Source: Mariniblastus sp. (GTDB lineage Bacteria > Planctomycetota > Planctomycetia > Pirellulales > Pirellulaceae). From it: 64,000 nt of DNA. The DNA lies in contig JAKVBG010000010.1 of the NCBI GenBank assembly GCA_022447605.1, forward strand, positions 62,001-126,000, written 5' to 3'. Position numbers and translations under genes: made by a program. The notes below the pieces were generated by a model. The model was not told where the DNA came from. It ran no database searches and saw only the letters and a program-made list of their open reading frames with translations. This document shows, piece by piece, positions 6,750-38,548 of this stretch; the first letter of the stretch is position 1, and the number at the start of each line of letters is the position of its first letter.

Positions 6750-9368
6750 TCAGGAACCGTCGGGCGACGTGTCGACCTGTTTTCCTAACGATTGGACCAC
6801 GGCACGAAAGGCTGGCTTGGCCTGTCGCTGCCGGTCAAACAGAAGCGGGTGATTGGTGCGGGGCCAGGGCCAGTTGTTCATCCAGCTCTGACCATCATGC
6901 AGGTTCCAGAAAGTGACGCGGTCCACGACATCGGCGTGCCGGCCAATCACCCGGAACAGCTGGGCGTACTGATCGGCCTGGCTTTGCAACACATCAGCCG
7001 GCAACTCTCCGGGATACGGGTCGAACGTTTTCATCTCTTCGCGGTGCTTCCCATCATCGATGTACCAGCGAATCCGGGTCACGACATCCATGTCCAATTC
7101 GGAAAAGACGACGCGGACTCCCAGTTTGCGCATTTCGTTCAAGGCCCGCTCAATCCCCTCGTACGGAATCATGCCGTACTCGTAATGGGCCTGCAAACCC
7201 AACACATCGATCGGACCGCCCTGTTCTTTTACCGATTTGACCAGGCGGATGAGTTTTTCCAGTTTTCCTGGCTGGTCGCACCGGTAGTCGTTATAGATCA
7301 GCAGAGCATCCGGGTCCGCCTGGCGGGCATACTGATAAGCCTTGACAATGAACTCCTCGCCCAGAACATCCATCCACTCATTGCGCCGCAGGTACTCGTC
7401 GTTTGAGTCAGCCAACGCCTCGTTAACCACATCCCAGGAAGCGATCCGCCCCCGATAACGGCCGACTACAGCGTGGATATGCGTGCGCAAACGCTCCAGT
7501 AAAAGCTCGCGCGAGACGGGCTGGTCGCCTTCCTTGAAAAACCAGGCAGGCGTGGTGCCAGGTCGGGACCAGATCAGGTTGTGTCCAACCACTTCCAGGC
7601 CATGCTCTTCGGCCAGGTCCATGAACCGATCCGCAGCAGCAAAATCAAACTTCCCCTCCTCGGCCTGAACCTTCGTGGCCTTCATGCAGTTTTCCGGAGT
7701 CACGACGTTGAAGTGTCGCTTGAGCAACGCCAGGTCCTGAGGTCGCTCAAACACACCCAGGTCAGTTCCCACACCGATTTTAAACTTACCGCGCGCCGCC
7801 TCTTTAAGTGCGGGACCGTTGGCTGCCCCCGTTGTCTCGTCCGTGGACGATGTATCAGGAGGCACCGGCTCATCGAGCGCGTGCCGTATGCGGCGCTCCA
7901 GCAACGCTTCGGCCCGGGTCAATGACTCGGCATGCCCTGGATCATCGACCACGTTCGTTTCTTCGCCTGGATCCTGCTTGATCTGGGTCAGCACCCGCTT
8001 GCCCGTAGGGCTCACGCTATCCGTGTCGCGCCACTCCGTATAACGATAATTGCCAAACCGGATGCTGTGGCCCGTCTCGCGGTTATTGCCCCCGGCCGGG
8101 TACGAACTGTAAGCCGACCAGCGATGGCCGGCGGACGGATCATCGAACAGCTTGGCAAAACTTCGACCCTGACAATGTGCTGGTGTTTCAATCCCCGTCA
8201 ACTCACAAAGCGTTGGGTACAGGTCGATCAACTCCACCAGGCGCGACGTGTTGTGAGCCGCCTGGTCGCCCTCCTGTTTACCCGGCACGCGAATGATCAG
8301 CGGCACACGGGTGTCGCATTCGAAGTTGGTATGCTTGCACCAGCTTGAATGATCACCCAGTTTCCAGCCATGGTCACCCCACAGAACCACGATCGTATCG
8401 TCGGCCAAGCCGCTCTCTTCGAGTGCGTCGAGAATCAGACCCAGGTTCGCGTCGGCATAACTCGTACAGGCGGCGTAGCCATGCAGCAACCGCCGATTCA
8501 AATCGTCAGAAAAATCGGTCGGTCCTTTCCCTTCAAAATCGGAGTACTTCGACATTTCACCGGCACGAAGATTGGCCGCATAGGCGGGATAGCCAGGCGG
8601 GATATCCGTATTGGGCGGCATCTGAAAATCGTCTCGCTGGTACAGGTCCCAATATTTTTTGGGGGCATTGAAAGGGAGGTGGGGCTTGGTCAGACCGACA
8701 GCCAGAAAGAAGGGCTGGACAGCCTCGCCGGAATCGGCCGAACGCGAACCAAACTCCTTGAGCAACTTGGCGGCCCGGGCTGCGCGCAAACCATCGGCAT
8801 AGTCCGCATCCGGGACATCCGCCATTTCGGTCATGGGACCCTTGGCTGGATCCCGCGGGTCCCCGCTGGGCTTCGCGCGTTGAACCCGTTCCCGGTTCTC
8901 GGGTAGCGCGTACATTGGCGCCGATGGGTTAAGCCATTGGTCCCAATGCTCCGGGTCGACGCCGGGCCCCTTGGTCCCGTGGTAGATCTTGCCCAGGCCG
9001 ACCGCCCGGTAACCCTGCTTGCGAAAATGCTGGTTCATCGTAAGCAACTTGGGCCAGCGCTTTCTCCAGCCCTGAACGTGAAAGGTCTGCTCCGCGGTGC
9101 GTGTCGGGTAGAGACCACCCATCAGCGAGAGCCGCGAAGCTCCGCACACGGCCTGCTGACAGTAAGCCCGATCAAACTGCAAACCCGAGGCAGCCAGCCG
9201 GTCAAAATTGGGAGTCTGCACGTCCGCGCCATACGTCCCCAGTTCGGGCCTCAGGTCGTCCACTGCGATAAACAGGACGTTGGGCCGTTGTTCAACAGCT
9301 CCCAAGGGCAAGGAGCCCCACGCCAGTGAGACCAACAGGATAAAACGGGTGCAGCGAGTCAATTTCAT
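6750..9368 (-). CDS. Secreted sulfatase fused to a GH10 xylanase-like domain
   Basis: An 872-residue bifunctional protein. After the signal peptide (MKLTRCTRFILLVSLAWGSL) residues about 28-490 are a sulfatase resembling iduronate-2-sulfatase: RPNVLFIAVDDLRPELGTYG, then C75-G-A-S-R79, the C-x-(P/A)-S-R site where Cys is matured to formylglycine, and later LWGDHGWKLGDHSSWCKHTN. A linker follows, then residues about 525-865 form a GH10 barrel: GHNLIWSRPGTTPAW, SWDVVNEALAD with acid/base Glu650, LGLQAHYE, and VVFSELDMDV with nucleophile Glu757. Both catalytic sets look intact. One polypeptide would therefore both desulfate and cut a beta-linked xylan-like chain. The frame is continuous with no sign of a join between two genes. 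Confidence 0.92.
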   Translation of the reverse strand: MKLTRCTRFILLVSLAWGSLPLGAVEQRPNVLFIAVDDLRPELGTYGADVQTPNFDRLAASGLQFDRAYCQQAVCGASRLSLMGGLYPTRTAEQTFHVQGWRKRWPKLLTMNQHFRKQGYRAVGLGKIYHGTKGPGVDPEHWDQWLNPSAPMYALPENRERVQRAKPSGDPRDPAKGPMTEMADVPDADYADGLRAARAAKLLKEFGSRSADSGEAVQPFFLAVGLTKPHLPFNAPKKYWDLYQRDDFQMPPNTDIPPGYPAYAANLRAGEMSKYSDFEGKGPTDFSDDLNRRLLHGYAACTSYADANLGLILDALEESGLADDTIVVLWGDHGWKLGDHSSWCKHTNFECDTRVPLIIRVPGKQEGDQAAHNTSRLVELIDLYPTLCELTGIETPAHCQGRSFAKLFDDPSAGHRWSAYSSYPAGGNNRETGHSIRFGNYRYTEWRDTDSVSPTGKRVLTQIKQDPGEETNVVDDPGHAESLTRAEALLERRIRHALDEPVPPDTSSTDETTGAANGPALKEAARGKFKIGVGTDLGVFERPQDLALLKRHFNVVTPENCMKATKVQAEEGKFDFAAADRFMDLAEEHGLEVVGHNLIWSRPGTTPAWFFKEGDQPVSRELLLERLRTHIHAVVGRYRGRIASWDVVNEALADSNDEYLRRNEWMDVLGEEFIVKAYQYARQADPDALLIYNDYRCDQPGKLEKLIRLVKSVKEQGGPIDVLGLQAHYEYGMIPYEGIERALNEMRKLGVRVVFSELDMDVVTRIRWYIDDGKHREEMKTFDPYPGELPADVLQSQADQYAQLFRVIGRHADVVDRVTFWNLHDGQSWMNNWPWPRTNHPLLFDRQRQAKPAFRAVVQSLGKQVDTSPDGS

Positions 9369-9692
9369 TTCAATTCGTCAGCCAATATGCAGTTTACAGA
9401 CATGCCTGGAAACGAGATGAACGCTTCCCAGGATCCAGTTTAGTCGATCGATCCCCAAGCGGGCCACGCCCCGCCCACCGGGAGACAAAAAAGCGTCGTT
9501 TTATCCCGTCCGCTTTTCACCACCTGCTGACGACTGGCCGGGTGGACACTCCTGAATGTCAAATCGATCAACGCCTTGCCAAACTGTCGAGCTGAAACTA
9601 CCGGTTCGCCCGATGACGCCGTCTTTCCTCGACGGTCCTGCAAGCCCGGTCGCAAAAAGGAACCGACCTTACCAGACGGTTAAGCGGCTCGA
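9369..9692. other. Non-coding gap between two leftward genes
   Basis: About 320 bases lie downstream of the multicopper oxidase gene and upstream of the sulfatase-GH10 gene. Short open frames exist but have no recognisable protein sequence or ribosome site. I saw no convincing terminator hairpin. It must hold the promoter of the sulfatase-GH10 gene at its left end, but I could not pick a clear -35/-10 pair. Confidence 0.4.
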
Positions 9693-11189
9693 CTAAACCG
9701 TGTACTGCACGACCCGCGCCATGCCGCTGGCCAGATGGTAGAGATTGTGGCAATGAAAAAACCAGCTGCCCGGGTTATCAGCGATAAATTCAATATCAAT
9801 TTTCTGTTTCGGTCCAACCCCTACCGTATCCTTGAGTGGCGCCAGCGGATCATCCCATGCACCCGCTTGCGGCAACAGGCGAAAGAAATGGCCATGCAGG
9901 TGCATCGGGTGAAACATCATCGTGGAGTTGGTCATCCGAATGCGAACCCGGTCGCCCTGCCGAATCTCGAGCGGTTTCGCCTGACCGTCGGGTGAAAAGA
10001 GCTCGGGGTAATACTCACCCCCCATCGACCAGAGGTACTTGTTCATCTCGCCCCCCAGATCGATCTCGAACTCTTTGACCGGCCCCTTCGGCAGAGTCGT
10101 TGGCAAGGGCGACTTGAGCGCCGAGTAATTGGCCATGCCACCCGATTTCCCGGTGAATTTGGCCGGTTCCAGGTTGGGCTGCGGAGCCACGTCGGCCGTA
10201 TGGATCACACCGACCACCTGCTGGCTGGTCCCCAGAGCGGCTGCCCGCAAAGAGAAGCTGCCCGATTGGCCAATGGTCACCAGCACGTCATACCGTTCGG
10301 CCGTGGCAATCACCAGGTTGTCGACATCGATCGGGTCGACGTTCTGGCCGTCGGCGGCAATCACCTGCATCCGGTGTCCGTCGAGCATCACCTGAAAAAA
10401 CGTTGACGTTGACGCGTTGATCAGGCGCAAGCGGATCCGATCACCCGCGCGAACTTTTTGTGTCCACGGGCTCTTGTTAGAGCGTCCGTTGAGCAAGTAG
10501 CCAGGGTAGTTAATGTCAACATTGAATGGCTGATCACCGGGAAACTTGTAATCGCCGGGGGGTGGCTTGACGGCCGCCGTCTCCGGCTGCTGACCGCGGA
10601 ACTGGGGAATGATCCCCTCGGGCTCCTGGTTGAGCCAGTCGGACATCGTGACCACCACATCATGATCGTAAGACCAAGGCTCGTCCTTGGCCTCGACAAT
10701 CAGCGTCCCGCTCATGCCGGTCTGCTCTTGAAAGTTGTAATGGGAATGATACCAGTATGTCCCCGACTGGCGAATCGGATACTCGTACAACACGGACTCA
10801 CCGGCACCAATCGGTAATTGCGTCACATCCGGCACGCCGTCCATGTAGTTGGGCACCAGCATTCCGTGCCAGTGCAGTGACGTTGGCACGGCCAACCGAT
10901 TGTTGACCAGCACACGAAACATATCCCCTTCGCGATAGCGTATCTCAGTTCCGGGCAAGCTGCCGTTGATCAAAGTCGCGCTGGTCGGCACACCAAGCGG
11001 GGCAATCGTACTCTGCTCAAGGTTGCAGACGTAGTCCGGCTTGGCTTGCACAGGAACGGCCTCTGGCTCCTGCTCCGTCGGGGAAGGGCTGGGGGTCTGG
11101 GCCATGATCGGCGCGGACAATGCAAACGGCAGGCCGGCGCCCGCTTGCAGAAGACGGCGCCGAGAGAGACGGGAATTTCGAGGTTGCAT
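9693..11189 (-). CDS. Multicopper oxidase, Tat-exported, CopA/laccase-like
   Basis: A 498-residue three-cupredoxin-domain oxidase with all four copper-binding His motifs visible: TSLHWHGMLVPN, GTYWYHSHYNFQEQTG, FHPMHLHGHFF and WFFHCHNLYHLASGM. The last includes the type 1 copper Cys and a likely axial Met. The N-terminus has a twin-arginine signal (SRLSRRRLLQAGAGLPFALS), so the folded copper enzyme goes to the periplasm or cell surface. I chose the ATG at 11189; an earlier ATG at 11231 would place 14 extra residues before the twin-arginine signal. The family oxidises phenolics or metal ions using oxygen; the exact substrate cannot be read from sequence. It is divergent from the UnbV-type gene. 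Confidence 0.92.
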   Translation of the reverse strand: MQPRNSRLSRRRLLQAGAGLPFALSAPIMAQTPSPSPTEQEPEAVPVQAKPDYVCNLEQSTIAPLGVPTSATLINGSLPGTEIRYREGDMFRVLVNNRLAVPTSLHWHGMLVPNYMDGVPDVTQLPIGAGESVLYEYPIRQSGTYWYHSHYNFQEQTGMSGTLIVEAKDEPWSYDHDVVVTMSDWLNQEPEGIIPQFRGQQPETAAVKPPPGDYKFPGDQPFNVDINYPGYLLNGRSNKSPWTQKVRAGDRIRLRLINASTSTFFQVMLDGHRMQVIAADGQNVDPIDVDNLVIATAERYDVLVTIGQSGSFSLRAAALGTSQQVVGVIHTADVAPQPNLEPAKFTGKSGGMANYSALKSPLPTTLPKGPVKEFEIDLGGEMNKYLWSMGGEYYPELFSPDGQAKPLEIRQGDRVRIRMTNSTMMFHPMHLHGHFFRLLPQAGAWDDPLAPLKDTVGVGPKQKIDIEFIADNPGSWFFHCHNLYHLASGMARVVQYTV

Positions 11190-11495
11190 CACATTACTCA
11201 CATTTTTCGGGTAACAGGAGCCAGCAGTCAACGCCCGAAATCCTAAACAGGGCCGAAACCAACGTCAACTGGCTGGCTTATGAGTGCAAAACTGAAACGA
11301 TTGCGCACGGTGTCAACGCTGCGAAGAAGCGTCGCAGTGGCCCCTCATCCCAGCACCGGACTTCCCCGACGGCCGGCGACCGGGGAATCAAGCCTTTCCT
11401 GCCCGACAACCAGTCGCTGCATGGCAGCGGCGTTGCGAACGTGATACCCTGACCCGTATTCAAACAGTCAACCACTGCCTACAAGGTGACAACCC
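11190..11495. promoter_or_regulatory. Divergent intergenic region between oxidase and UnbV-type gene
   Basis: These 306 bases must carry promoters for both flanking genes. On the + strand a weak candidate is TTGCGA (11433-11438) and TATTCA (11457-11462) with 18 bases between them. AAGGTGA just before 11496 is the ribosome site. No open frame here looks like a protein. Confidence 0.3.
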
Positions 11496-14724: not shown

Positions 14725-17700
14725 ATGACTCCTCCACCCAAATTGTTTGCAGCCTGGTTCTACATCGCCAACAATCCCGGCGTCGCAAACGACCGTGTGC
14801 AGGCTTGGCGACATTTTTGCCAGACCGGTTTTCGACAGAACCTGGATCCACACCCTCTGTTCGACACCCGGTTTTATCGAAAGAAGTACCTGGCCAACCA
14901 ACCGGACGTCAACCCGCTACTGCACTACGTTCGCCGACCTGGCAAACTCCTGCAAACGCACCCGCTATTTGACTGCTCCTACTTTGTCGACCAGTTGTCA
15001 TCCAGGCAAAGAGAATCCAAAGCTGACAATGAGACCTGGTTGGACTGCTTCCTGGCCAACAACCATGAGTGGAGAATCGACCCATCCACGTCCTTTTGCA
15101 GCCATCGCTACCTGGAACATTACCCGGATATCGCCGAGTTGAACGTATCGGCCCTCTTTCACTACCTGGCCCATGGCCGGAAAAAGGGCCGTTTGGCTTT
15201 TGTGCCAAGAGTCGCGGTCCCCGCGCTGTTTGATGCCCCTTATTACCTGCGGGAAAACCCGGACGTCCGGGCTGCCAACCTCGATCCCTGGCAACACTAT
15301 TGCGAATTCGGCAACCGGGAAGACCGAAACCCGAACCCCGTATTTCACAACGCCTTCTATCGGGACAAATACCTGGATGGTGACGATTCCGAGAATGCGT
15401 TGATGCACTACCTGGGCCATCAAGGCGAGCCCCTGGACACGCACCCACTGTTTTGCGGTGAGTTTTACCTCTCCCAGCTCAACAGCCAGCCAGCCGACAT
15501 GACCCCGCTTGAGCATTTCCTGCAGTTCAATGGTGACAACCTGGCATCCCCCTCACCCCTGTTTTGCAGCAAACGCTACCTGGAATATCACTCGGAAATC
15601 AATCGCCAAACAAACCCTCTCTACGAGTATCTCTCCCAGGGTCAGGCCGCCGGTCGTCGAACCTTCTTCGACGTCCAGCAGTTGGAAGCTATCCAGCGTT
15701 TAAGTGAACTGGAACTGGAGCTGTTGTCCCATTTTCCTGTTCCCAATGCCCAGCTGCCGGCCGCACTGAAAAGGCTGGATGGAAACCGGCCGACGTTGCT
15801 GTGTGTCTCCCACGCCGCTTCCAAGACGGGTGCTCCGCTGATCATCCTCAAACTGGCAGAACAATTCAAAGCGCAGTACAACGTCAATATTTTCAACATC
15901 CTCTGCCAAGGCGGTGACCTGGTCAGCCGTTTTGAAACGCTCGGTCCAACGGTCTGTCTGCAAGACAGCTTGGGCAGTTTGCATCCATTTGACCAGGAAC
16001 TTATCGAGTCGTTGTTGAAAACGGTCTCGCCGTTTGCTGCCTTGGTCAACTCGGCCGAATCCCGCCACCTATTGCCCGAGTTGGCTCGGTTGCGGATCCC
16101 GATTCACTCACTCGTTCATGAAAATGCCCGTTGCTATCAGCCAGAGGCATTTGCCCCGATCGCCAAGCATAGCGATCGGGTCATCTTTCCCTGCCAATAT
16201 GTTGCCGATGCCGCCGAACAGAACACGGCATTCCCAAAACGGCAGGAGATGGTTTTGCCCCAGGGTCTGCTGAACCCGAACCTGTTGACCATGCCCCGCC
16301 ATTCCGAATCCGGTTTGCGGGAAAAGTGGAACATTCCAAGCAACGCTACGCTGGTGCTCGGTTGCGGCACCGGCGATGGCCGCAAGGGCCTGGATCTGTT
16401 CGTCGCCACCGCCTTGTCCACGCTGAACCGGATGCCGGAAAACAGTATTGTGTTCGGCTGGTTGGGAGAGATGCCAACGTACATCAACACGGAACATGCT
16501 TTCTGGGCGATCGAGGATGTTGTGACCGCAGGCCGCCAGGCAAACATCCGTTTCTTTGGCCCCACGGATAACGCGGCAGCCTATTTCCAGGCTTGTGACA
16601 TCTTCTTTTTACCCTCTCGCATGGACCCCTTTCCCTGTGTGGTCAACGAAGCGATGGCCGCGGGCAAACCAGTCATCCTGTTCGATGGGGGAAGCGGGTG
16701 CGTGGACATCGTCGCACCGGATGGCGGGGCCGCTCCACCGTACGGTGATGTGGCATCGGCCACAGAGTCAATCTGCGAACTGGCGAAGGACCCGCAGCAA
16801 AGAGAACAGATGGGAGACCACAACCGCCAGTATGTAGGAAAGCATCTGCAGTTCAGCGACTACACCCATCGGATTGCCGAGAGCATCGTGGAATCGTTCG
16901 ATCTCTCACGGCACCGGTCGCTACCGGCCGCCCGGGCATTCCGTGACCAGGTTTTCCGTTTCCACTCCGATCGTCAGCGGATTATCTTTACCCTCCCCGC
17001 CTGGAATGTCAGTGGTGTCAATACGTTTGTGGAAAACCTGATTCACGAGTTGCGGGCAAGGGATTACGATGCCTCGATCCTGTTCACAACGCGGGATCCC
17101 GACCGGATCGACAGGGACTTGATGCCCACCGTTCCCTACCGCTTTCTCTCTTCCAGGACCTTGAGTCCCGCCGAAACTCGCTGCCAGCTGGAGGAGTACC
17201 TGCGCGCCAATGCGCCCTGTGTCTTTGTTCCGAACTACGACTATGCCGTTTCCAGTATCGCCAGCCAGCTTCCGGACAACGTGGGCGTGCTGGGTGTGTT
17301 GCACTGCGACGAGGATGAACATTACCTGCACGCCTACCGCATGGGCCACTATTGGGATGCGATTGTGGCCGTCAGTCCCACCGTGCGATCCCGACTGCTG
17401 CAGCTGAACCCGGCATTCGAAAAACGGCTGACCACCATCCCTTATGGCGTCCCGGTACCCGCAGATCGCACCGCTTCCCCCATGTACTCCTCCGTGATCC
17501 GCATGGTTTACTGTGGCCGTTTGGTCCAGAAGCAAAAACGGATTTTCGACTTCGTTGAACTCGCCAGCATCCTGGAAGCGCGCAACGTTCCGTTCCAGCT
17601 GACGATGATTGGCGACGGCCCGGCCATGGAAACGCTGTCCAGGCGCATGCAGCCCTTGATCGAACAGGGCTTGGTCCGAATGCCAGGTCGCCTGACGCAT

Positions 17701-18123
17701 CAACAGGTTCTCGAGGAACTGGAACAGCATGACGTATTCACCCTGATGTCAGACTACGAAGGCTTGCCCCTGTCTTTACTGGAAGCAATGGCCGTGGAAT
17801 GCGTCCCCGTCGTCACGGATGTAGAAAGTGGGATCAATGAGATCTTACGAGATCAAAATAATGCAATGATCTCACCCCGCCGTGACCCGGCCGCCATGGC
17901 CAAGAATATTATTCAGTTACAAGGCAATCCCGGTATGCGAATCTCGCTGGGCCAGGCCGCCAGGCAAACATTGCACGAGCGGCGCCTGTCGTCATCGGGG
18001 ATGGCCGATCAGTACCAGGTAGTGCTGGACAAGATCTTCCGTTCGCTGGAAGAACCCCGTTTGCGTTCCCAAGATATCCCGCTCGATTGCCCCGAGGTTC
18101 GCATGTTACTGGATGCTGCCTGA
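14725..18123 (+). CDS. Large protein with N-terminal repeats and two tandem GT-B glycosyltransferase domains
   Basis: 1132 residues. Residues 1-315 hold about eight degenerate repeats of some 40-45 residues with the core HPLFD-x2-FY-x-YLxxxPDV...P-x-HY-x3-G (for example HPLFDTRFYRKKYLANQPDV). Residues about 355-735 are a first GT-B, GT4-like domain: LLCVSHAASKTGAPLIILKL, GCGTGDGRKGLDLFV, and DIFFLPSRMDPFPCVVNEAM. Residues about 750-1110 are a second GT4-like domain: FTLPAWNVSGVNTFVENL, VYCGRLVQKQKRIFDF, and LMSDYEGLPLSLLEAMAVE. It probably transfers two sugars during assembly of a cell-surface glycan. There is no signal peptide or clear membrane segment. The stop TGA is directly followed by the ATG of the sulfotransferase gene, so the two form one translational unit. 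Confidence 0.85.
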   Translation: MTPPPKLFAAWFYIANNPGVANDRVQAWRHFCQTGFRQNLDPHPLFDTRFYRKKYLANQPDVNPLLHYVRRPGKLLQTHPLFDCSYFVDQLSSRQRESKADNETWLDCFLANNHEWRIDPSTSFCSHRYLEHYPDIAELNVSALFHYLAHGRKKGRLAFVPRVAVPALFDAPYYLRENPDVRAANLDPWQHYCEFGNREDRNPNPVFHNAFYRDKYLDGDDSENALMHYLGHQGEPLDTHPLFCGEFYLSQLNSQPADMTPLEHFLQFNGDNLASPSPLFCSKRYLEYHSEINRQTNPLYEYLSQGQAAGRRTFFDVQQLEAIQRLSELELELLSHFPVPNAQLPAALKRLDGNRPTLLCVSHAASKTGAPLIILKLAEQFKAQYNVNIFNILCQGGDLVSRFETLGPTVCLQDSLGSLHPFDQELIESLLKTVSPFAALVNSAESRHLLPELARLRIPIHSLVHENARCYQPEAFAPIAKHSDRVIFPCQYVADAAEQNTAFPKRQEMVLPQGLLNPNLLTMPRHSESGLREKWNIPSNATLVLGCGTGDGRKGLDLFVATALSTLNRMPENSIVFGWLGEMPTYINTEHAFWAIEDVVTAGRQANIRFFGPTDNAAAYFQACDIFFLPSRMDPFPCVVNEAMAAGKPVILFDGGSGCVDIVAPDGGAAPPYGDVASATESICELAKDPQQREQMGDHNRQYVGKHLQFSDYTHRIAESIVESFDLSRHRSLPAARAFRDQVFRFHSDRQRIIFTLPAWNVSGVNTFVENLIHELRARDYDASILFTTRDPDRIDRDLMPTVPYRFLSSRTLSPAETRCQLEEYLRANAPCVFVPNYDYAVSSIASQLPDNVGVLGVLHCDEDEHYLHAYRMGHYWDAIVAVSPTVRSRLLQLNPAFEKRLTTIPYGVPVPADRTASPMYSSVIRMVYCGRLVQKQKRIFDFVELASILEARNVPFQLTMIGDGPAMETLSRRMQPLIEQGLVRMPGRLTHQQVLEELEQHDVFTLMSDYEGLPLSLLEAMAVECVPVVTDVESGINEILRDQNNAMISPRRDPAAMAKNIIQLQGNPGMRISLGQAARQTLHERRLSSSGMADQYQVVLDKIFRSLEEPRLRSQDIPLDCPEVRMLLDAA

Positions 18124-19839
18124 ATGGAAACCAACCGTGTTTCTCGACCCGTATTCATCGTGGCGCAGCAGCGCAGCGGGACCAATCTGTTACGAAAATC
18201 GCTGGCCGCCACACCCGGATTTCGTGATCTGGATGAGGTGTTCGACCCTAAGCAGAAACAGTATTGGCATTTCCGCAAAGGGAGAGTTCGCCAGCAGCCC
18301 GAGCTGGCAACACCTGGCCGGGAACACCAGATCGAGATGTTCGAGTCCTTCCTGGAGCACCGCCTGGCCTGCCCGCAGCCACACACCTTGATCGACGTCA
18401 AATACAACTCGGTCCACTCGCTTGACGACTTGTGGCTTTCCCCGATGGAAACACCCGTACTGATCGAGTGGCTGGTTCAAAAACAGCACCCCGTCATCCA
18501 TCTGGTCAGGGAAAACCACCTGGAAAACCTGGTCAGCATGCTGGTTGGAACCGAGTCGGCGCAGTGGGTGGTCAACCGCGGCGACGAGGGGCCGAGACCC
18601 GTGATTCAATTCGAACTGGACCCCGAACAGACGGTGGCCCAAGTACAGAGGCGAGAGAGGGAGTTGCAGCGCTTCCGACATTACCTGAAACGGGCCAACT
18701 GCATCGAATGGGAATACGACCACCTGCTGGATGAAGGGGGCCGTTTTTCAAGTCAACTGCTCGATCACCTGGCCCGTCGGCTGAAGCTGGCTGCGGCTCC
18801 CGATCCCCCAATCGTCACACGCAAAACGGGCCGATCGATTTTTGATGTTGTTGTCAACCTTGAATCCACGATCAAACCGGCACTGGCACGGCAGGGGTAC
18901 GGAAGCCTGGTGCGCCGGCCCGCAAGCATTCCCAGGCCGGTCGACGGCAGCGGGCACCCACTGGATCCCGCCCCTTCAAATCGGCTGCGTCCTGTTACGG
19001 ACGGCAGTGCCTATCGCAAGATTCCACGCGTCTCGCCGGTGATCCGCCCGGATCCCAGCCCCGTTTTTGTGATCGCCATGCAGCGAAGCGGTACCAACCT
19101 GTTGCGCAAGGCACTGGCCAACGACGGCTCCCTGTTCGACCTCAACGAAATCTTTGATCCTTTTCATCAGCAATACTGGTCGTACCGCGAACAGATGATC
19201 CGGGACAACCCGGATCTGTCCGTTCCCAGTTCTTCGAATCAGCTCGAGGTTTTCGAGTCGTTTCTGAACCATCACCTGCACCACAGCCCGGCCCGATTGA
19301 TTGTTGACGTCAAATACAATTCAACACACCATTTGAACCGGGTATGGCACGCTCCCGGGTCGCGCCCCCTGTTGCTGGACTGGTTGGTCGAACAGCAATG
19401 TCCGGTTATCCACCTGGTTCGTGACAACATCCTGGAAAACTATGTCAGCAACGTTGTCGCGTTTGAGTCGAGGTCCTGGGTTGCAGGTGCGGAGGATTCC
19501 GGCGATACATTTTCCACGAAGCTGAATGTCCGGGAGACCCTGCGAAAGCTGCAGATCTTTGAACGACAGATATCCGTTTTTCGAAAGTGGCTCGCTCCCA
19601 CGAATTGCCTGGAACTGACCTATGAACGACTGCTGGGTTCCGGCGGTCAACTTGCCGAAGATGCCTCACGACAAATCCGGGAACACCTTGGCATCACCGG
19701 CCATCGACCTTTTCAAGTGAAGACTCAAAAATCGAAGCGCGCTCTGGTGGATGTGATCGAAAATTTTGAAACGGACATCCGGCCCGCCCTGATCCAGCAT
19801 GGCTATGAAAGATGGCTGCCGCCAGCACGGGCGGCCTAG
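18124..19839 (+). CDS. Tandem double-domain sulfotransferase, LPS-sulfotransferase (NodH)-like
   Basis: 571 residues made of two homologous sulfotransferase domains at an offset of 304 residues. Domain 1 has PVFIVAQQRSGTNLLRK (from Pro9), the PAPS 5'-phosphosulfate loop, and PVIHLVRENHLENLVS (from Pro123), the 3'-phosphate site. Domain 2 repeats both: PVFVIAMQRSGTNLLRK (from Pro313) and PVIHLVRDNILENYVS (from Pro427). DVKYNS also occurs in both. The family moves sulfate from PAPS to a sugar hydroxyl. Both PAPS sites look intact, so the protein may add sulfate at two positions or to two acceptors. It begins immediately after the glycosyltransferase stop, which points to sulfation of that enzyme's product. 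Confidence 0.88.
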   Translation: METNRVSRPVFIVAQQRSGTNLLRKSLAATPGFRDLDEVFDPKQKQYWHFRKGRVRQQPELATPGREHQIEMFESFLEHRLACPQPHTLIDVKYNSVHSLDDLWLSPMETPVLIEWLVQKQHPVIHLVRENHLENLVSMLVGTESAQWVVNRGDEGPRPVIQFELDPEQTVAQVQRRERELQRFRHYLKRANCIEWEYDHLLDEGGRFSSQLLDHLARRLKLAAAPDPPIVTRKTGRSIFDVVVNLESTIKPALARQGYGSLVRRPASIPRPVDGSGHPLDPAPSNRLRPVTDGSAYRKIPRVSPVIRPDPSPVFVIAMQRSGTNLLRKALANDGSLFDLNEIFDPFHQQYWSYREQMIRDNPDLSVPSSSNQLEVFESFLNHHLHHSPARLIVDVKYNSTHHLNRVWHAPGSRPLLLDWLVEQQCPVIHLVRDNILENYVSNVVAFESRSWVAGAEDSGDTFSTKLNVRETLRKLQIFERQISVFRKWLAPTNCLELTYERLLGSGGQLAEDASRQIREHLGITGHRPFQVKTQKSKRALVDVIENFETDIRPALIQHGYERWLPPARAA

Positions 19840-33552: not shown

Positions 33553-35031
33553 CTATTTCTTGGGGCGATTCTTTTGCGAATCGGGGTGCCTCGGCCCGCG
33601 ACCCAGGTACTTGGTTTCATCAAAAACCTTGACACCGTTGCCCAGGATCCGCGGGTCACCCGTTCGCCTGAGTTCAGCCGTCAGGCGGTCATTCAGCTCT
33701 GCCCGAATGCTGCGGTAAGCCGGGTCCTCGGCCACATTGTTCAGCTGCCCGGGATCATCGGCCTGAATGTAAAGTTCATACTCCGGGCGTTTGGCAAAGG
33801 CCAGGTCGTACTTGCGGCGATGGTCGGCATCATCGTCCTGGTGATCCACCATGTACGTCTTGGTCGGACCATTGTCACAATCGCCCAGCCAGACCCCCGG
33901 GATCGTCGCTTTCTGGTAGTCGGGTGTGCCGGCCGGCCAGCGCTCCGGGGTGAAATTCCGGATCAACAGGTAGTCGTCGGTCCGAATGGACCGCATCGGC
34001 GTCCCCCCCGTGTCGGGCGATTCCTGACAGAGAACGTGTCGCTCTTTGCCAGTGAACAGGTGATCCCGATCTGCCTCGACCCGCCCGGAGGCAGGCGAAT
34101 CAAAAATTTTCGACCAGCTGCGACCCGTCATGGCCTGCGGCGCAGGGACCTGGGCCAAGTCGAGAAAGGTGGGAGCTAAATCCTGGGTGCTGACAAAATC
34201 GGTTACCGTGCGACCCGGCTTGATTTTGGCCGGCCAGCGAACGGCCAGCGGCACGCGGACACCCGAATCGTACAGGTTGCTTTTGCAGCGGGGAAACGGC
34301 ATCCCATGGTCCCCCGTCACCACCACGACCGTGTTGTCGAGCTGGCCGATGGCCTCCAGTTGATCAATCGCCTCACCCAACTCCCGATCAAACCGCTGAA
34401 CCTCCCAGTAGTAATCTGCCACATCGCCCCGCACCTCGTCGCTGTCGGGGAAATGGGGAAACAGCTTGACCTGGCCCAGGTCCATACCGCTCTCTTGACC
34501 CGATCCTTTCTTGTAACCCCGGTGGGGATCGGAAGCGCCGAACCAGAAACAGAACGGCTGGTCGCGAGGCCAAGCCTCGAGGAACTGTGCAAAACTTTTG
34601 TATTTCTTGCCGGCCGGATGTCGCGGCCAGTTATCGTGATTGCCGGGACCCCAGCTCTTGCGAAAATGTCCCGTGAAGTACCCCGCATCCTCCAGCAGGT
34701 GCGGGTACGTCTGGTGCTTGGTGTTGAGACGACTCCACAGGTTGGCCCCGTAACCAAGTCGCCAGTGATACTGGCCGGTCAGGATTGAGTTGCGGGACGG
34801 GGTGCAGGAGGGGGCTGTCACGAACGCATTTTCAAACAGGATTCCCTCGCGAGCCACCCGGTCAAAGACGGGTGTCTTGACGACCGGGTCGCCATAGGCA
34901 CTGGCGTGCGGCCAACCCCAATCATCGGCAATGGCAAACAGGATGTTGGGCCGATCGTCGATCGCCTGCAACGGCGCAGCCGATCCAAACAGAAACAGCA
35001 GCAGAACAGGGATCATCAGTGGGTGGTTCAT
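33553..35031 (-). CDS. Secreted sulfatase, heparan N-sulfatase (SGSH)-like
   Basis: 492 residues. A signal peptide (MIPVLLLFLFGSAAPLQA) is followed by RPNILFAIADDWGWPHASAY with metal-site Asp-Asp, then Cys76 in C-T-P-S-R, the classic site for conversion to formylglycine. VVTGDHGMPFPRCKSNLYDS is typical of the N-sulfoglucosamine sulfohydrolase subgroup. It probably removes sulfate from a glycan in the periplasm or outside the cell. Its start overlaps the stop of the preceding sulfatase gene by four bases, so the two are co-translated. Confidence 0.92.
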   Translation of the reverse strand: MNHPLMIPVLLLFLFGSAAPLQAIDDRPNILFAIADDWGWPHASAYGDPVVKTPVFDRVAREGILFENAFVTAPSCTPSRNSILTGQYHWRLGYGANLWSRLNTKHQTYPHLLEDAGYFTGHFRKSWGPGNHDNWPRHPAGKKYKSFAQFLEAWPRDQPFCFWFGASDPHRGYKKGSGQESGMDLGQVKLFPHFPDSDEVRGDVADYYWEVQRFDRELGEAIDQLEAIGQLDNTVVVVTGDHGMPFPRCKSNLYDSGVRVPLAVRWPAKIKPGRTVTDFVSTQDLAPTFLDLAQVPAPQAMTGRSWSKIFDSPASGRVEADRDHLFTGKERHVLCQESPDTGGTPMRSIRTDDYLLIRNFTPERWPAGTPDYQKATIPGVWLGDCDNGPTKTYMVDHQDDDADHRRKYDLAFAKRPEYELYIQADDPGQLNNVAEDPAYRSIRAELNDRLTAELRRTGDPRILGNGVKVFDETKYLGRGPRHPDSQKNRPKK

Positions 35032-36602
35032 TTCGACTCACCCTTTTCTCCAGGGGAGGCAGGGCGGGTCCGCTCGGCCTGGCGGATCGCTTCCAGCTTG
35101 GCCTGCATCGTTTTCACTACCTCCGGCCTGGACTTAACCAGGTTGGTCTTCTCCCCCGGATCGGTGGCCAGGTTGTACAACAACCCGCCAGGGTCATTGC
35201 CCAACTCAATATTGGTTTTCGGGTTATAACTGGCCCCCTTACTGGGCTCGATATATTTCCACTGGTTGTGTCGCAAGGCGAGCGCTCTTCCATGTTCAAC
35301 CAGGTATTCCCGGCCCTGTTTCGTTTGGCCCAGCAGCGCCGGCACCATCGCCAGGCTGTCCGGGATCGCTTCGGCAGGGATATCGATCTGGGACGCGTTC
35401 TTGCCCAGTGCCGCAAAGGTGGCCGGAAAATCGATCTGGCACATCAGCGCGTCCGACTCGGTCCCGGGCTGAATCCGGCCAGGCCACTTGATGATCATCG
35501 GCACGCGGGTTCCCGCTTCAAAATTGGAATACTTGTTGCCACGAAACGGACCAGACGGGTTGTGGTCACCCTGCTTTTCAACGGCATCATCCTGGTAACC
35601 GTCATCCAGGACGGGTCCGTTGTCACTGGTAAAGATGACCATCGTGTTATCGGTCATCCCGCAACTTTCCAGCGTCTCCAGCAACTGGCCCACGCACCAG
35701 TCGGTTTCAGCAATCGTATCGCCACGGGGGCCCATCGTGGACTTGCCCACAAAACGGGCGTGGGGCACACGCGGTACGTGAATATCGTGGGTTGAGAAAA
35801 ACAGGAAGAACGGCTCCTCCTTCGGTTGCTGATCCTTGATGAACTGCACCGCCTTTTCAGTAATCCGGTCCGCCATGTCCTCGTCGACCCAGCGAGCCGA
35901 CTCACCGCCACTCATCCAGCCAATTCGGCTGATCCCGTTGACGATCGTCATGTTGTGGCCGTTGCTCCAATCCATCTTGAGCGTCTCTCGATGGGTTTTC
36001 CCCGATGGCTGATCGTCCAGAGGCTTGCCAAACTGAACCTTGATCGGATCATTCGGGTCGAGGTCAACCACGTGGTGATTCTCGACGTAGACACAGGGGA
36101 CGCGGTCGCCGGTGGCCGGGATGAGGAAACAGTAATCAAAGCCGATCTCCAACGGCCCCGGCTTGATCGGACCGTTCCAGTCCAACTGGCCATCGCCCAG
36201 ACCAAGATGCCACTTCCCCACCACCCCGGTGGTGTAGCCGGCTTGCCTCAACAAGGAGGGCAATGTGGTGCGACCCGGCTTGATGATGGCCGCTGCATCC
36301 CCGCGGGCAATCCCGGTCCCTTTCCTGCGCCAGGCATACTGGCCCGTCAGCATGGCATATCGCGACGGAGTACAGGTCGCCGAGGGCGAATGCGCATCGG
36401 TAAACCGCAAACCGTCTTTGGCCAACTGGTCGATGTGGGGAGTCTCCACCCCCACGGCGCCGTAACAACCGACATCGGCGTAACCAAAGTCGTCCGTATA
36501 AATCAGGACGATGTTCGGCTGGGAAGCGGCCGGGGTTGCTTCCTGGGCAACCAGGGGCGCAACGATCAACAGCAGGGTAAAGATCAGACAGAAAGTTCGC
36601 AT
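35028..36602 (-). CDS. Secreted sulfatase, arylsulfatase A-like
   Basis: 524 residues with signal peptide (FCLIFTLLLIVAPLVAQ), NIVLIYTDDFGYADVGCYG at the metal site, and Cys77 in C-T-P-S-R, the formylglycine site. VGKWHLGLGDGQLDWNGP with the conserved Lys-x-His-Leu-Gly, and IFTSDNGPVLDDGY supplying further metal ligands, complete the active site. All key residues are present. It is first in a two-gene overlapping unit with the SGSH-like sulfatase. The two enzymes may act in sequence on one sulfated polysaccharide. Confidence 0.93.
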   Translation of the reverse strand: MRTFCLIFTLLLIVAPLVAQEATPAASQPNIVLIYTDDFGYADVGCYGAVGVETPHIDQLAKDGLRFTDAHSPSATCTPSRYAMLTGQYAWRRKGTGIARGDAAAIIKPGRTTLPSLLRQAGYTTGVVGKWHLGLGDGQLDWNGPIKPGPLEIGFDYCFLIPATGDRVPCVYVENHHVVDLDPNDPIKVQFGKPLDDQPSGKTHRETLKMDWSNGHNMTIVNGISRIGWMSGGESARWVDEDMADRITEKAVQFIKDQQPKEEPFFLFFSTHDIHVPRVPHARFVGKSTMGPRGDTIAETDWCVGQLLETLESCGMTDNTMVIFTSDNGPVLDDGYQDDAVEKQGDHNPSGPFRGNKYSNFEAGTRVPMIIKWPGRIQPGTESDALMCQIDFPATFAALGKNASQIDIPAEAIPDSLAMVPALLGQTKQGREYLVEHGRALALRHNQWKYIEPSKGASYNPKTNIELGNDPGGLLYNLATDPGEKTNLVKSRPEVVKTMQAKLEAIRQAERTRPASPGEKGESK

Positions 36603-36829
36603 GGCGCAGCCTGCAGGTTCAGGAATGGTAAGTTAGTGATTCGGGATGTTTCTCAGCTGAGGGTTCTATCTTGGCTTTGAATGCGGGGTAATGCAAGTTG
36701 CGTTGAACGATCGGCCGTTTCCCCGCACTGACTGGCTCTGATCAGCCACGACATCGAGGGGTAAAACAACCTGCCTGGCCGGGCGACACCCGTTGCTGGC
36801 CCGCCCCCACCGCCCGTGTCCCGTGGGGA

Positions 36830-38365
36830 CTACTCGTATTTCCATTTGATGGCCCACGGGTCTTTCAACTCCGCCTGCATCTGTTTCATCCGTTCCTGGT
36901 ACCGCTTGAGCACCTGGGCATATTCCGGCTTGTCCGCCAGGTTGTACGCCTCGTCCGGATCCTTTTCGATGTCAAACAGCTCGAAGCGGGGCCGCTGGAT
37001 GTATTGACCTACCGTGCGCTGGCCATAGTTGGCGGCCTGGCCTTTTTGCAGCTGCGCCTGCCAGCTGGAAGCGGCCCAGAGATCGGAGGCAAACGGGTAA
37101 TCCAGTTTGTGGGCAATGTTCCAGATCAGTTTGAATTTTTTGTCACGTACGACTCGCATCGGGTAGTACATCTGGATTTCGTGAAACGTGTGTGAGGCAA
37201 ACACGTCCGCATGATGTTCGGCATCGGCGTCACCGAGAATCGGCAACCAGGACTTCCCCTGGTACTGGCGAAACTCATTTCCCCCGGACCGGTTCTCCCG
37301 GACCGATTCGTCCCGCTGCTGCCAAAACTGGTCCGGGTCCTGCCAGTCGGCCGGGCCATTGATCTGCCGGTCCAGGCCCCCGGCAAAGTCGAGCAAGGAA
37401 GGCGTGATATCGACGTGGCTGATCAGCGCCTCGGACACCACGCCCCGTTTCTCCTGATAAGGGTCGCGGACAATGAAGGGGACCTTGAGACCCGGGTCGT
37501 AGACGGTTGTCTTGCCACCGGCGAACGCCATGCCGTGGTCCGAGGTAAACAGGATCAATGTCCGGTCAAACAGGTCGGCCTGCTGCAAGATTTCCACCAG
37601 GCGACCCAAGCCCGTATCGATCCGCGAACAGGACTGGTAGTACTGGGCCAGTTCGGCGCGGGTTTCCGGGGTGTCCGGCAGAAACTTGGGAACAGGGACC
37701 TCGTCCGCCTGGTAGAAGACCTCCTGAATTCCGGCGTGCGCCCCCCGTTCTTTCTTGTTGCCGAACAGGTTCGGCTTGAGTTCCAGTTCTGATGTGGCAT
37801 CAATCCCACCCCCCCGGTGCGGATCCGAAGTGGCAAAGTAGAGGAAGAAAGGCCGATCGCTGTCGGCCGTTAAAAAATCGCGACAGTTGTTGGCCATCTT
37901 GACCGGGTTGCGGGGGTTGCCGGGAATGGTCTCGTCAAACTGGTAAACGATCTCGGGTGCCACGTGGAATTTACCGCAACGCGCCGTGCGGTAGCCGGCG
38001 CGGGCCAGGACCCGGGGCAGACTGAGACTCACCACGTTGTGGTAGCTGGCAAACTTATGGAAATGATGTTGGTGCCCGTACTGTCCATTCTTGTGATTGT
38101 GCAGGCCGGACAGAACCACCGAGCGGCTGGCACTGCAACTGGCCGTGGTGGCAAAGGCGTGGCTGAACCGGGTCCCATCACGGGCCAACCGGTCGAGATG
38201 GGGGGTGACGGCCACCGAGTCCCCGTAACACCCCAGCGTGGTGCCCTGGTCATCGGTGATGAACAGGATGATGTTCCGCTCGGCGCGCGTCGTCACGTCG
38301 GCCGCCGCCACCAGGTACGGGTAGAGACTGCTGAAAGCCAGGACGCCAAGAATCAATAACCGCAT
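36830..38365 (-). CDS. Secreted sulfatase, SGSH-like, with C-S-A-S-R active site
   Basis: 511 residues from the ATG at 38365, which begins a signal peptide (MRLLILGVLAFSSLYPYLVA). The frame is open another 56 codons upstream but without sense. Active site: IILFITDDQGTTLGCYGDS, then Cys77 in C-S-A-S-R, an accepted variant of C-x-P-S-R, and LFTSDHGMAFAGGKTTVYDP. TARCGKFHV takes the place of the usual GKWHLG. It belongs with the heparan N-sulfatase-like group. It is transcribed leftwards like the next two sulfatases but 227 bases away from them, so it probably has its own promoter. Confidence 0.91.
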   Translation of the reverse strand: MRLLILGVLAFSSLYPYLVAAADVTTRAERNIILFITDDQGTTLGCYGDSVAVTPHLDRLARDGTRFSHAFATTASCSASRSVVLSGLHNHKNGQYGHQHHFHKFASYHNVVSLSLPRVLARAGYRTARCGKFHVAPEIVYQFDETIPGNPRNPVKMANNCRDFLTADSDRPFFLYFATSDPHRGGGIDATSELELKPNLFGNKKERGAHAGIQEVFYQADEVPVPKFLPDTPETRAELAQYYQSCSRIDTGLGRLVEILQQADLFDRTLILFTSDHGMAFAGGKTTVYDPGLKVPFIVRDPYQEKRGVVSEALISHVDITPSLLDFAGGLDRQINGPADWQDPDQFWQQRDESVRENRSGGNEFRQYQGKSWLPILGDADAEHHADVFASHTFHEIQMYYPMRVVRDKKFKLIWNIAHKLDYPFASDLWAASSWQAQLQKGQAANYGQRTVGQYIQRPRFELFDIEKDPDEAYNLADKPEYAQVLKRYQERMKQMQAELKDPWAIKWKYE

Positions 38366-38548
38366 ATCTGTTCCGAGGTAAAACCTGCCTGTGTCGATCC
38401 AGCCGTTATCATAAACCACATTGCCCGGCGGGGTAGCCAGTTTTTGCAGGGGCCGCAGGGCAACGGTCGGCTGGCTCATTCGGTCGTCGCGCTTTGACAG
38501 CCGATTCCGAATATGTTCGATTGGTCTCAGCACACTACCTGCCCGGAA

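Follow-up and report, generated by a model that had tools for sequence, protein, structure and literature searches.

A recurring glycosyltransferase and tandem sulfotransferase gene pair in the planctomycete Mariniblastus

Background

Sulfated polysaccharides have been reported from few bacterial genera, six by one count (PMC11625862). The glycosyltransferase (GT) and sulfotransferase (ST) genes described in PMC8205485 and PMC7356697 sit in large clusters, and planctomycetes are treated mainly as degraders of sulfated glycans (PMC9723792, PMC4807772). Here we describe a pair of adjoining genes, one for a GT with two GT-B modules and one for an ST with two domains, in a 64,000-nucleotide stretch of the genome of Mariniblastus sp. 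(assembly GCA_022447605.1, contig JAKVBG010000010.1, positions 62,001 to 126,000). The whole stretch is called the window below.

In the synechan (xss) system of Synechocystis, GTs and STs also work together to give a sulfated glycan. However, the xss cluster comprises 8 GTs, 2 STs, Wzx, Wzy, a polysaccharide co-polymerase (PCP) and regulators, whereas the window has two genes; to the knowledge of the authors of that study, ST genes are unreported from other bacterial exopolysaccharide clusters (PMC8205485). The sulfated glycosaminoglycan-like cluster of Pontiella likewise comes from a marine bacterium of the Planctomycetes-Verrucomicrobia-Chlamydiae group and combines GT2 and GT4 genes with a PF13469 ST, but contains eight potential hexosaminyltransferases (PMC7356697). 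A Chelatococcus plasmid locus (NZ_CP012399) has GTs directly upstream of an ST of the same subgroup as that of the window. These GTs, however, are a GT2 and a single GT4 module, the ST is fused to an FkbM methyltransferase, and the cysD/cysC genes for the supply of 3'-phosphoadenosine 5'-phosphosulfate (PAPS) lie 1.7 kb further. The ST itself resembles Stf0 (PDB 1TEX) and the NodH-type enzymes (PF09037, PF13469) in its PAPS loop RSG(S/T), in a glutamate aligned to that of Stf0 and in its fold family. It differs from them in having two domains on one chain, in its coupling to a GT, in its low overall similarity and in the DxKYNS motif of its subgroup. No planctomycete, two-gene or tandem GT/ST unit was found described in the accessible open-access literature, in line with the initial annotation of this DNA, which knew of no two-gene unit of such a form.

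The gene pair

The two genes lie on the forward strand without a gap:

14725..18123, + strand: GT gene (gene 1), 1132 aa, with an N-terminal repeat region and two GT-B (GT4) modules, assigned from its open reading frame (ORF), Pfam and orthologues
18121..18126, + strand: stop-start junction TGA-ATG with zero gap, kept as TAA-ATG in loci L028 and L015
18124..19839, + strand: tandem ST gene (gene 2), 571 aa, assigned from its ORF, Pfam, a self-alignment of its domains and a structure model

ORFs, Pfam and self-alignments agree on a 1132-residue GT with repeats and two GT-B modules, followed by a 571-residue tandem ST with the stop and start codons adjacent. This part of the initial annotation is confirmed. 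The junction reads GCC TGA ATG GAA, the ATG of gene 2 coming directly after the stop of gene 1. The pairing is beyond chance because the zero-gap GT/ST junction recurs, as TAA-ATG, at two other Mariniblastus loci. Promoter and terminator scans around the pair gave a signal no better than that of shuffled sequence.

The pair is probably a small unit for building sulfated sugars that relies on other genes for export. More specifically, we lean towards a two-gene cytosolic glycan-sulfation unit, with polymerisation, flipping and export provided in trans. The dual GT4 protein would extend a glycan intermediate, itself linked to a carrier, by one or two sugars, and the tandem ST would transfer sulfate from PAPS onto hydroxyls of this intermediate; the acceptor and the linkage are inferred. 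The zero-gap junction may keep the two proteins co-expressed, presumably through co-translation. Flipping, polymerisation and export would be supplied by envelope polysaccharide machinery encoded elsewhere. Both proteins are most likely cytosolic, because a hydropathy scan shows no clear membrane segment in either of them (the highest 19-residue means are 1.47 and 0.70; no signal-peptide program was run) and because PAPS and nucleotide sugars are located in the cytosol.

Recurrence of the pair

The GT is present in 5 of 28 Mariniblastus genomes (E <= 1e-100; completeness 71-97%), and in all five an ST gene is the next gene downstream: G000, G403 (locus L028), G829 (L015), G389 (L061) and G831. 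The L028 proteins are 65% (GT) and 49% (ST) identical to those of the window. The corresponding values for L015 are 67% and 60%, the latter for the first ST domain only, as the contig ends after it. G389 and G831 have single-domain STs that are 37% identical to each other. The G389 protein has 302 aa and begins 48 bp after the GT; the mechanically assigned start in G831 overlaps the GT by 8 bp, whereas a start at a later Met would leave ~40 bp between the genes. The G389 pair is divergent and has a DNA polymerase gene directly upstream of its GT.

At the level of the order, 17 of 396 genomes match the GT profile at 1e-60. Three of them have a dual chain and twelve match with module 1 alone; in G302 and G236 the match is to module 2. 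G302, which belongs to another family, carries a 1032-aa GT with the repeats and module 2 (module 1 was not detected in it) at locus L062. A 282-aa ST follows 22 bp downstream, then a Methyltransf_24 gene and, after this set, two large proteins without Pfam matches. A metagenome-assembled genome (MAG) of the Bacteroidia has the reversed order at locus L017, where a dual GT comes after a Methyltransf_24-ST fusion. This GT has no repeats and shares 36% identity with that of the window over residues 333-1114. Conserved adjacency, the check proposed in the initial annotation, is thus seen in five of five GT-bearing genus genomes, one genome of another family and one Bacteroidia MAG. Since the GT/ST pair recurs, a sulfated glycan, as originally proposed, is most likely the product.

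The ST is matched at E <= 0.001 in 4 of 119 genomes of the family, and its subgroup profile is matched at 1e-12 in 13 of 392 genomes of the phylum (own genome included in both counts). A scan of genome contigs yielded 14 loci with this ST type. Among them are the Chelatococcus loci L021-L023, in which two large GTs, different from that of the window, immediately precede an ST-FkbM fusion (by Pfam on L021 and by homologues in L022 and L023). In L020 (Roseovarius), a repeat-bearing GT4-module protein lies 4.4 kb upstream of the ST, with a 694-aa protein with a sub-threshold ST match between them and an FkbM methyltransferase after the ST. In L026, a GT4 gene overlaps the ST locus on the opposite strand. 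The viral contigs and phage records searched contained no ST relative and hence gave no sign of phage carriage. Two plasmid records have one, both from Chelatococcus. On the Chelatococcus plasmid pCO-6, two GTs, an ST-FkbM fusion and cysD/cysC are close together (L014, 3102-14195), and this cluster may be a sulfation cassette that is carried on a plasmid and provides its own PAPS.

The tandem sulfotransferase

The two halves of gene 2 align with 42% identity over 251 columns (3e-72):

18139..18909, + strand: ST domain N, with RSGT 17-20, E38, DVKYNS 91-96 and R129/S138
18910..19059, + strand: linker between the ST domains, with 9 of 50 residues identical to the L028 linker and low model confidence
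19060..19821, + strand: ST domain C, with the motifs of domain N all intact in the window and the PAPS loop lost in L028

In Pfam, both Sulfotransfer_3 (1e-15) and Stf0 (7.9e-9) match gene 2 over two stretches, with scores of 59.1 bits for PF13469 (cut-off 27) and 35.8 bits for PF09037 (cut-off 22). The two domains also score separately, near the cut-off, in a six-frame search of the genome. The base of sulfotransferase catalysis is either His or Glu, and two PAPS-binding motifs have been described (PMC11625862). Both window domains have the 5'-phosphosulfate loop, the 3'-phosphate Arg...Ser motif and the putative catalytic Glu (E38). An alignment of 14 domains comprises the two of the window and 12 from relatives, and excludes L028 domain C, L021-L023 and L025; the residues invariant in all 14 include RSGT 17-20, L23, E38, D91, K93, Y94, H98, R129, S138 and Y198. 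Only two PDB entries are matched by the ST profile at E <= 0.01: 'LPS sulfotransferase NodH' (lipopolysaccharide, LPS; 9vki, 6.2e-9) and Stf0 (1tex, 1.1e-4). In the profile alignment to 1TEX, the Glu of 'GEPQEFF', the catalytic base proposed for Stf0, is aligned with E38.

Structure prediction was also suggested initially. The ST model (mean predicted local distance difference test, pLDDT, 78; predicted template modelling score, pTM, 0.51) matches nine solved structures at E <= 0.001. Eight are tyrosylprotein sulfotransferases and one is Stf0 with trehalose, to which the model has a TM-score of 0.53 by target length and a root-mean-square deviation of 11.5. The predicted fold family is clear, but these matches do not fix the acceptor.

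The second domain has changed in L028 (locus positions 9053-10774, residues ~310-570), where QQADAG replaces QRSGTN, DVTY replaces DVKY and a His replaces the Ser of the 3'-phosphate motif. The Glu and the Arg are retained and the ORF is still open. The domain is probably inactive because the PAPS loop and the 3'-phosphate Ser are lost.

The dual glycosyltransferase

The GT chain has three parts:

14740..15729, + strand: about eight repeats of 36-45 residues in two four-unit blocks, labelled here the 'PLFD repeat', from self-alignment
15772..16944, + strand: GT-B module 1, residues 350-740, with D634-x7-E642 where E-x7-E is expected
16960..18054, + strand: GT-B module 2, residues 746-1110, with E1012-x7-E1020 and R932/K938

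Residues 5-159 and 166-314 are 37% identical (2e-36) and represent two copies of the four-unit block; the count of about eight units is our reading of the sequence. No family in the Pfam scan covers the repeats, which probably hold the acceptor or a partner. Both modules match Glycos_transf_1/GT4, with two stretches each in PF00534 and PF13692. The E-x7-E motif is typical of the GT4/GT-B family. In module 2 this motif (E1012-x7-E1020), R932 and K938 are invariant in all six aligned GT proteins, and E-x7-E is not present in module 1 of the G389 and G831 proteins. Module 2 would be the conserved catalytic module, and an intact module 1 probably attaches a second sugar. The structure model of the GT is weak (pLDDT 64) and supports a GT-B fold, but nothing finer.

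Module 1 also has stand-alone relatives. A 424-aa GT homologous to it lies beside an ABC transporter gene in the same genome (contig C24, L088, 7825-9099), and a match of this type was found in 11 of 12 genus genomes in the order-wide GT profile scan.

Evolution of the pair

The module 2 sequences of the window, L028, L015, L061, L017, L062 and the G236 locus L063 form one clade (support 100/99). Module 1 of the window, its relatives and L017 forms a separate clade (99/96), inside which lies the long, uncertain row of L061. In the ST tree, a single clade (100/100) unites the domains of the window, L028 and L015. The duplication of the ST domain is older than the split between the window and L028, since the N and C domains separate within this clade (99/99 and 95/94). 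The single-domain ST of G389 groups with that of G302 and an Acidobacteria protein (92/94, outside the starred forks), and the L017 ST groups with L016, L019 and L024 (96/94); the tree does not include the G831 ST. Judging from these trees, the STs paired with the one GT clade belong to three or more branches, and these branches also include members that lack a window-type GT. This pattern and the disagreement of the GT and ST trees on the placement of L061 and L017 suggest repeated pairing or partner swapping between the GT and the STs. Swapping is put no more firmly than this because support is only 84/77 for the GT fork behind the disagreement.

Divergence is given as nonsynonymous divergence (dN) only, since most comparisons are saturated at synonymous sites. 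Between the window and L028, the GT regions have a dN of 0.23-0.29, ST domain N of 0.35 and domain C of 0.49, compared to 0.14-0.16 for three flanking genes. The difference is smaller between L028 and L015 (0.12-0.17 for the pair, 0.11 for one flanking gene). The higher dN may reflect relaxed constraint or diversification, which dN alone does not separate. In a search of 12 genomes for an empty site in genus members without the pair, the sigma-54 regulator that adjoins the pair has a homologue (64-65%) in five genomes, not counting G403. Gain and loss of the pair are inseparable because these homologues sit in a different neighbourhood.

Genomic surroundings

Five sulfatase genes reach into the window, as first noted, counting one that crosses the window start. 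None adjoins the pair and unrelated genes lie between. The nearest, 5.4 kb away, encodes an 872-aa protein (6750-9368, - strand) that joins a sulfatase at the N terminus (6e-36) to a GH10 domain at the C terminus (3.6e-90). Collinearity with G403 extends over almost the whole window and takes in the sulfatases; the exception is 6750-11231, where G403 lacks this fusion and a multicopper oxidase (9693-11231). Three consecutive sulfatases (33553-38533, - strand), the first two overlapping by 4 bp, are 78-81% identical to their G403 counterparts. The whole genome has 77 sulfatase matches in ~73 ORFs, with 75 matches over the cut-off. With so many sulfatase ORFs, none of them adjoining the pair, the sulfatases were rejected as part of the unit, and the link first drawn between the pair and the five window sulfatases is weak.

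The genome has three APS (adenosine 5'-phosphosulfate) kinase matches, probably in two genes, and 11 Sulfotransfer_3 matches in 10 ORFs (gene 2 included), nine of them over the cut-off. A 910-aa ORF on contig C57 (L125, 4150-6882) has weak sulfatase and sulfotransferase matches; by our reading of its sequence, it seems to join a sulfatase/phosphodiesterase-like domain, a tetratricopeptide (TPR)-like stretch and an ST domain.

A scan of 32 window proteins, which did not extend to several smaller ORFs, turned up no polymerase, flippase or polysaccharide exporter. Synechan-type flippase, polymerase and co-polymerase genes were likewise absent from these and from nine scanned neighbours in L061 and L062. 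Together with the lack of a clear membrane segment in either protein, this leaves the initial description of the pair as a minimal two-gene set that could polymerise a glycan unsupported. A separate locus of the same genome (L084, C138:86000-105999) has GT2 and GT4 genes as well as genes for an O-antigen ligase/Wzy_C protein, an asparagine-synthase-like protein, a deacetylase and a MurJ-like flippase; two sulfotransferase matches also fall within it. Perhaps this Wzx/Wzy-type locus finishes and exports the product of the pair.

Function and alternatives

A cytosolic glycan-sulfation unit accords with the domains, the NodH and Stf0 profile matches with their aligned Glu, the ST folds among the best structure matches and the invariant motif of module 2. 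It also accords with the adjacency in the genus, in G302 and in the Bacteroidia MAG, with the association of one GT clade with several ST branches, with the APS kinase genes, with a separate locus that has flippase-like, Wzy_C, GT and ST genes and with the lack of a clear membrane segment.

Several results weigh against it. The GT is missing at E <= 1e-100 from 23 of 28 Mariniblastus genomes, many of them incomplete. The G236 GT has module 2 twice on one chain and is without such an ST. In 12 other genomes of the phylum, a check for the window-type GT alone found it directly beside the ST at none of 14 places, and weak GT matches occur 2.8-4.2 kb away at three of them. No window-like GT adjoins the ST at six of the 14 contig loci (L016, L018, L019, L024, L025 and L027), several of which are short contigs. 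A universal link between this ST type and the window-type GT is ruled out by the 0 of 14; adjacency appears to track the GT clade and not the ST type at large. In addition, confidence in the structure model of the dual GT is low, eight of the nine best ST fold matches act on proteins (with low TM-scores), and the pair has no linked gene for an acceptor, carrier or exporter among the proteins scanned.

The alternative that fares best, although we consider it unlikely, is that, like Stf0 and NodH, the pair produces a sulfated glycolipid or a small sulfated glycoside and not a part of a polysaccharide. Such a product requires few sugars, NodH and Stf0 are the only PDB sequence matches at E <= 0.01, and the pair is not surrounded by a polysaccharide locus in the window, L028 or L015. 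However, two GT modules and two ST domains suggest a larger acceptor, and the ST scores far under the cut-off of the NCBIfam trehalose 2-sulfotransferase equivalog NF047724 (39.7 against 400 bits). About as unlikely is the idea that the GT and the tandem ST form one transferable complex that fits various envelope pathways, with domain C turning into a non-catalytic, acceptor-binding or regulatory part, as in L028. Domain C would then be a bacterial example of a pseudo-enzyme domain in the sulfation of glycans.

Glycosylation and sulfation of a cell-surface protein in the cytosol, ahead of its export, is improbable. The tyrosylprotein sulfotransferase matches point in this direction, as do a match of the low-confidence GT model to the protein glycosyltransferase SdgB, an FG-GAP repeat protein gene two genes upstream of the pair (conserved in L028 and L015) and the two large Pfam-less proteins of L062. 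But the structure matches are to generic folds with low TM-scores, and the DNA polymerase gene before the L061 GT means that no single protein gene accompanies every pair. A self-sufficient polymerising and sulfating unit, in which the two GT modules alternate as a processive polymerase, is more improbable still. It would account for two GT-B modules on a single chain and for the best Foldseek match of the GT model, the capsule synthesis multienzyme 8qoy (E 2.5e-18), yet the TM-score of that match is just 0.2 for a weak model, the pair persists where module 1 is without E-x7-E (G389, G831) or undetected (G302), and no export gene was seen. An incidental adjacency inherited within a collinear region is disfavoured and very improbable: most of the genus lacks the pair and synteny alone (with G403, and with L015 in the upstream flank) explains three of the five genus cases, but G389 has its divergent pair beside a DNA polymerase gene, G831 carries a relative of that pair, G302 belongs to another family and the Bacteroidia case has the reversed order.

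Significance

The small recurring pair offers a defined target for asking whether sulfatase-rich planctomycetes also make sulfated glycans. The decaying second domain of L028 provides a natural comparison between one and two active sulfotransferase domains.

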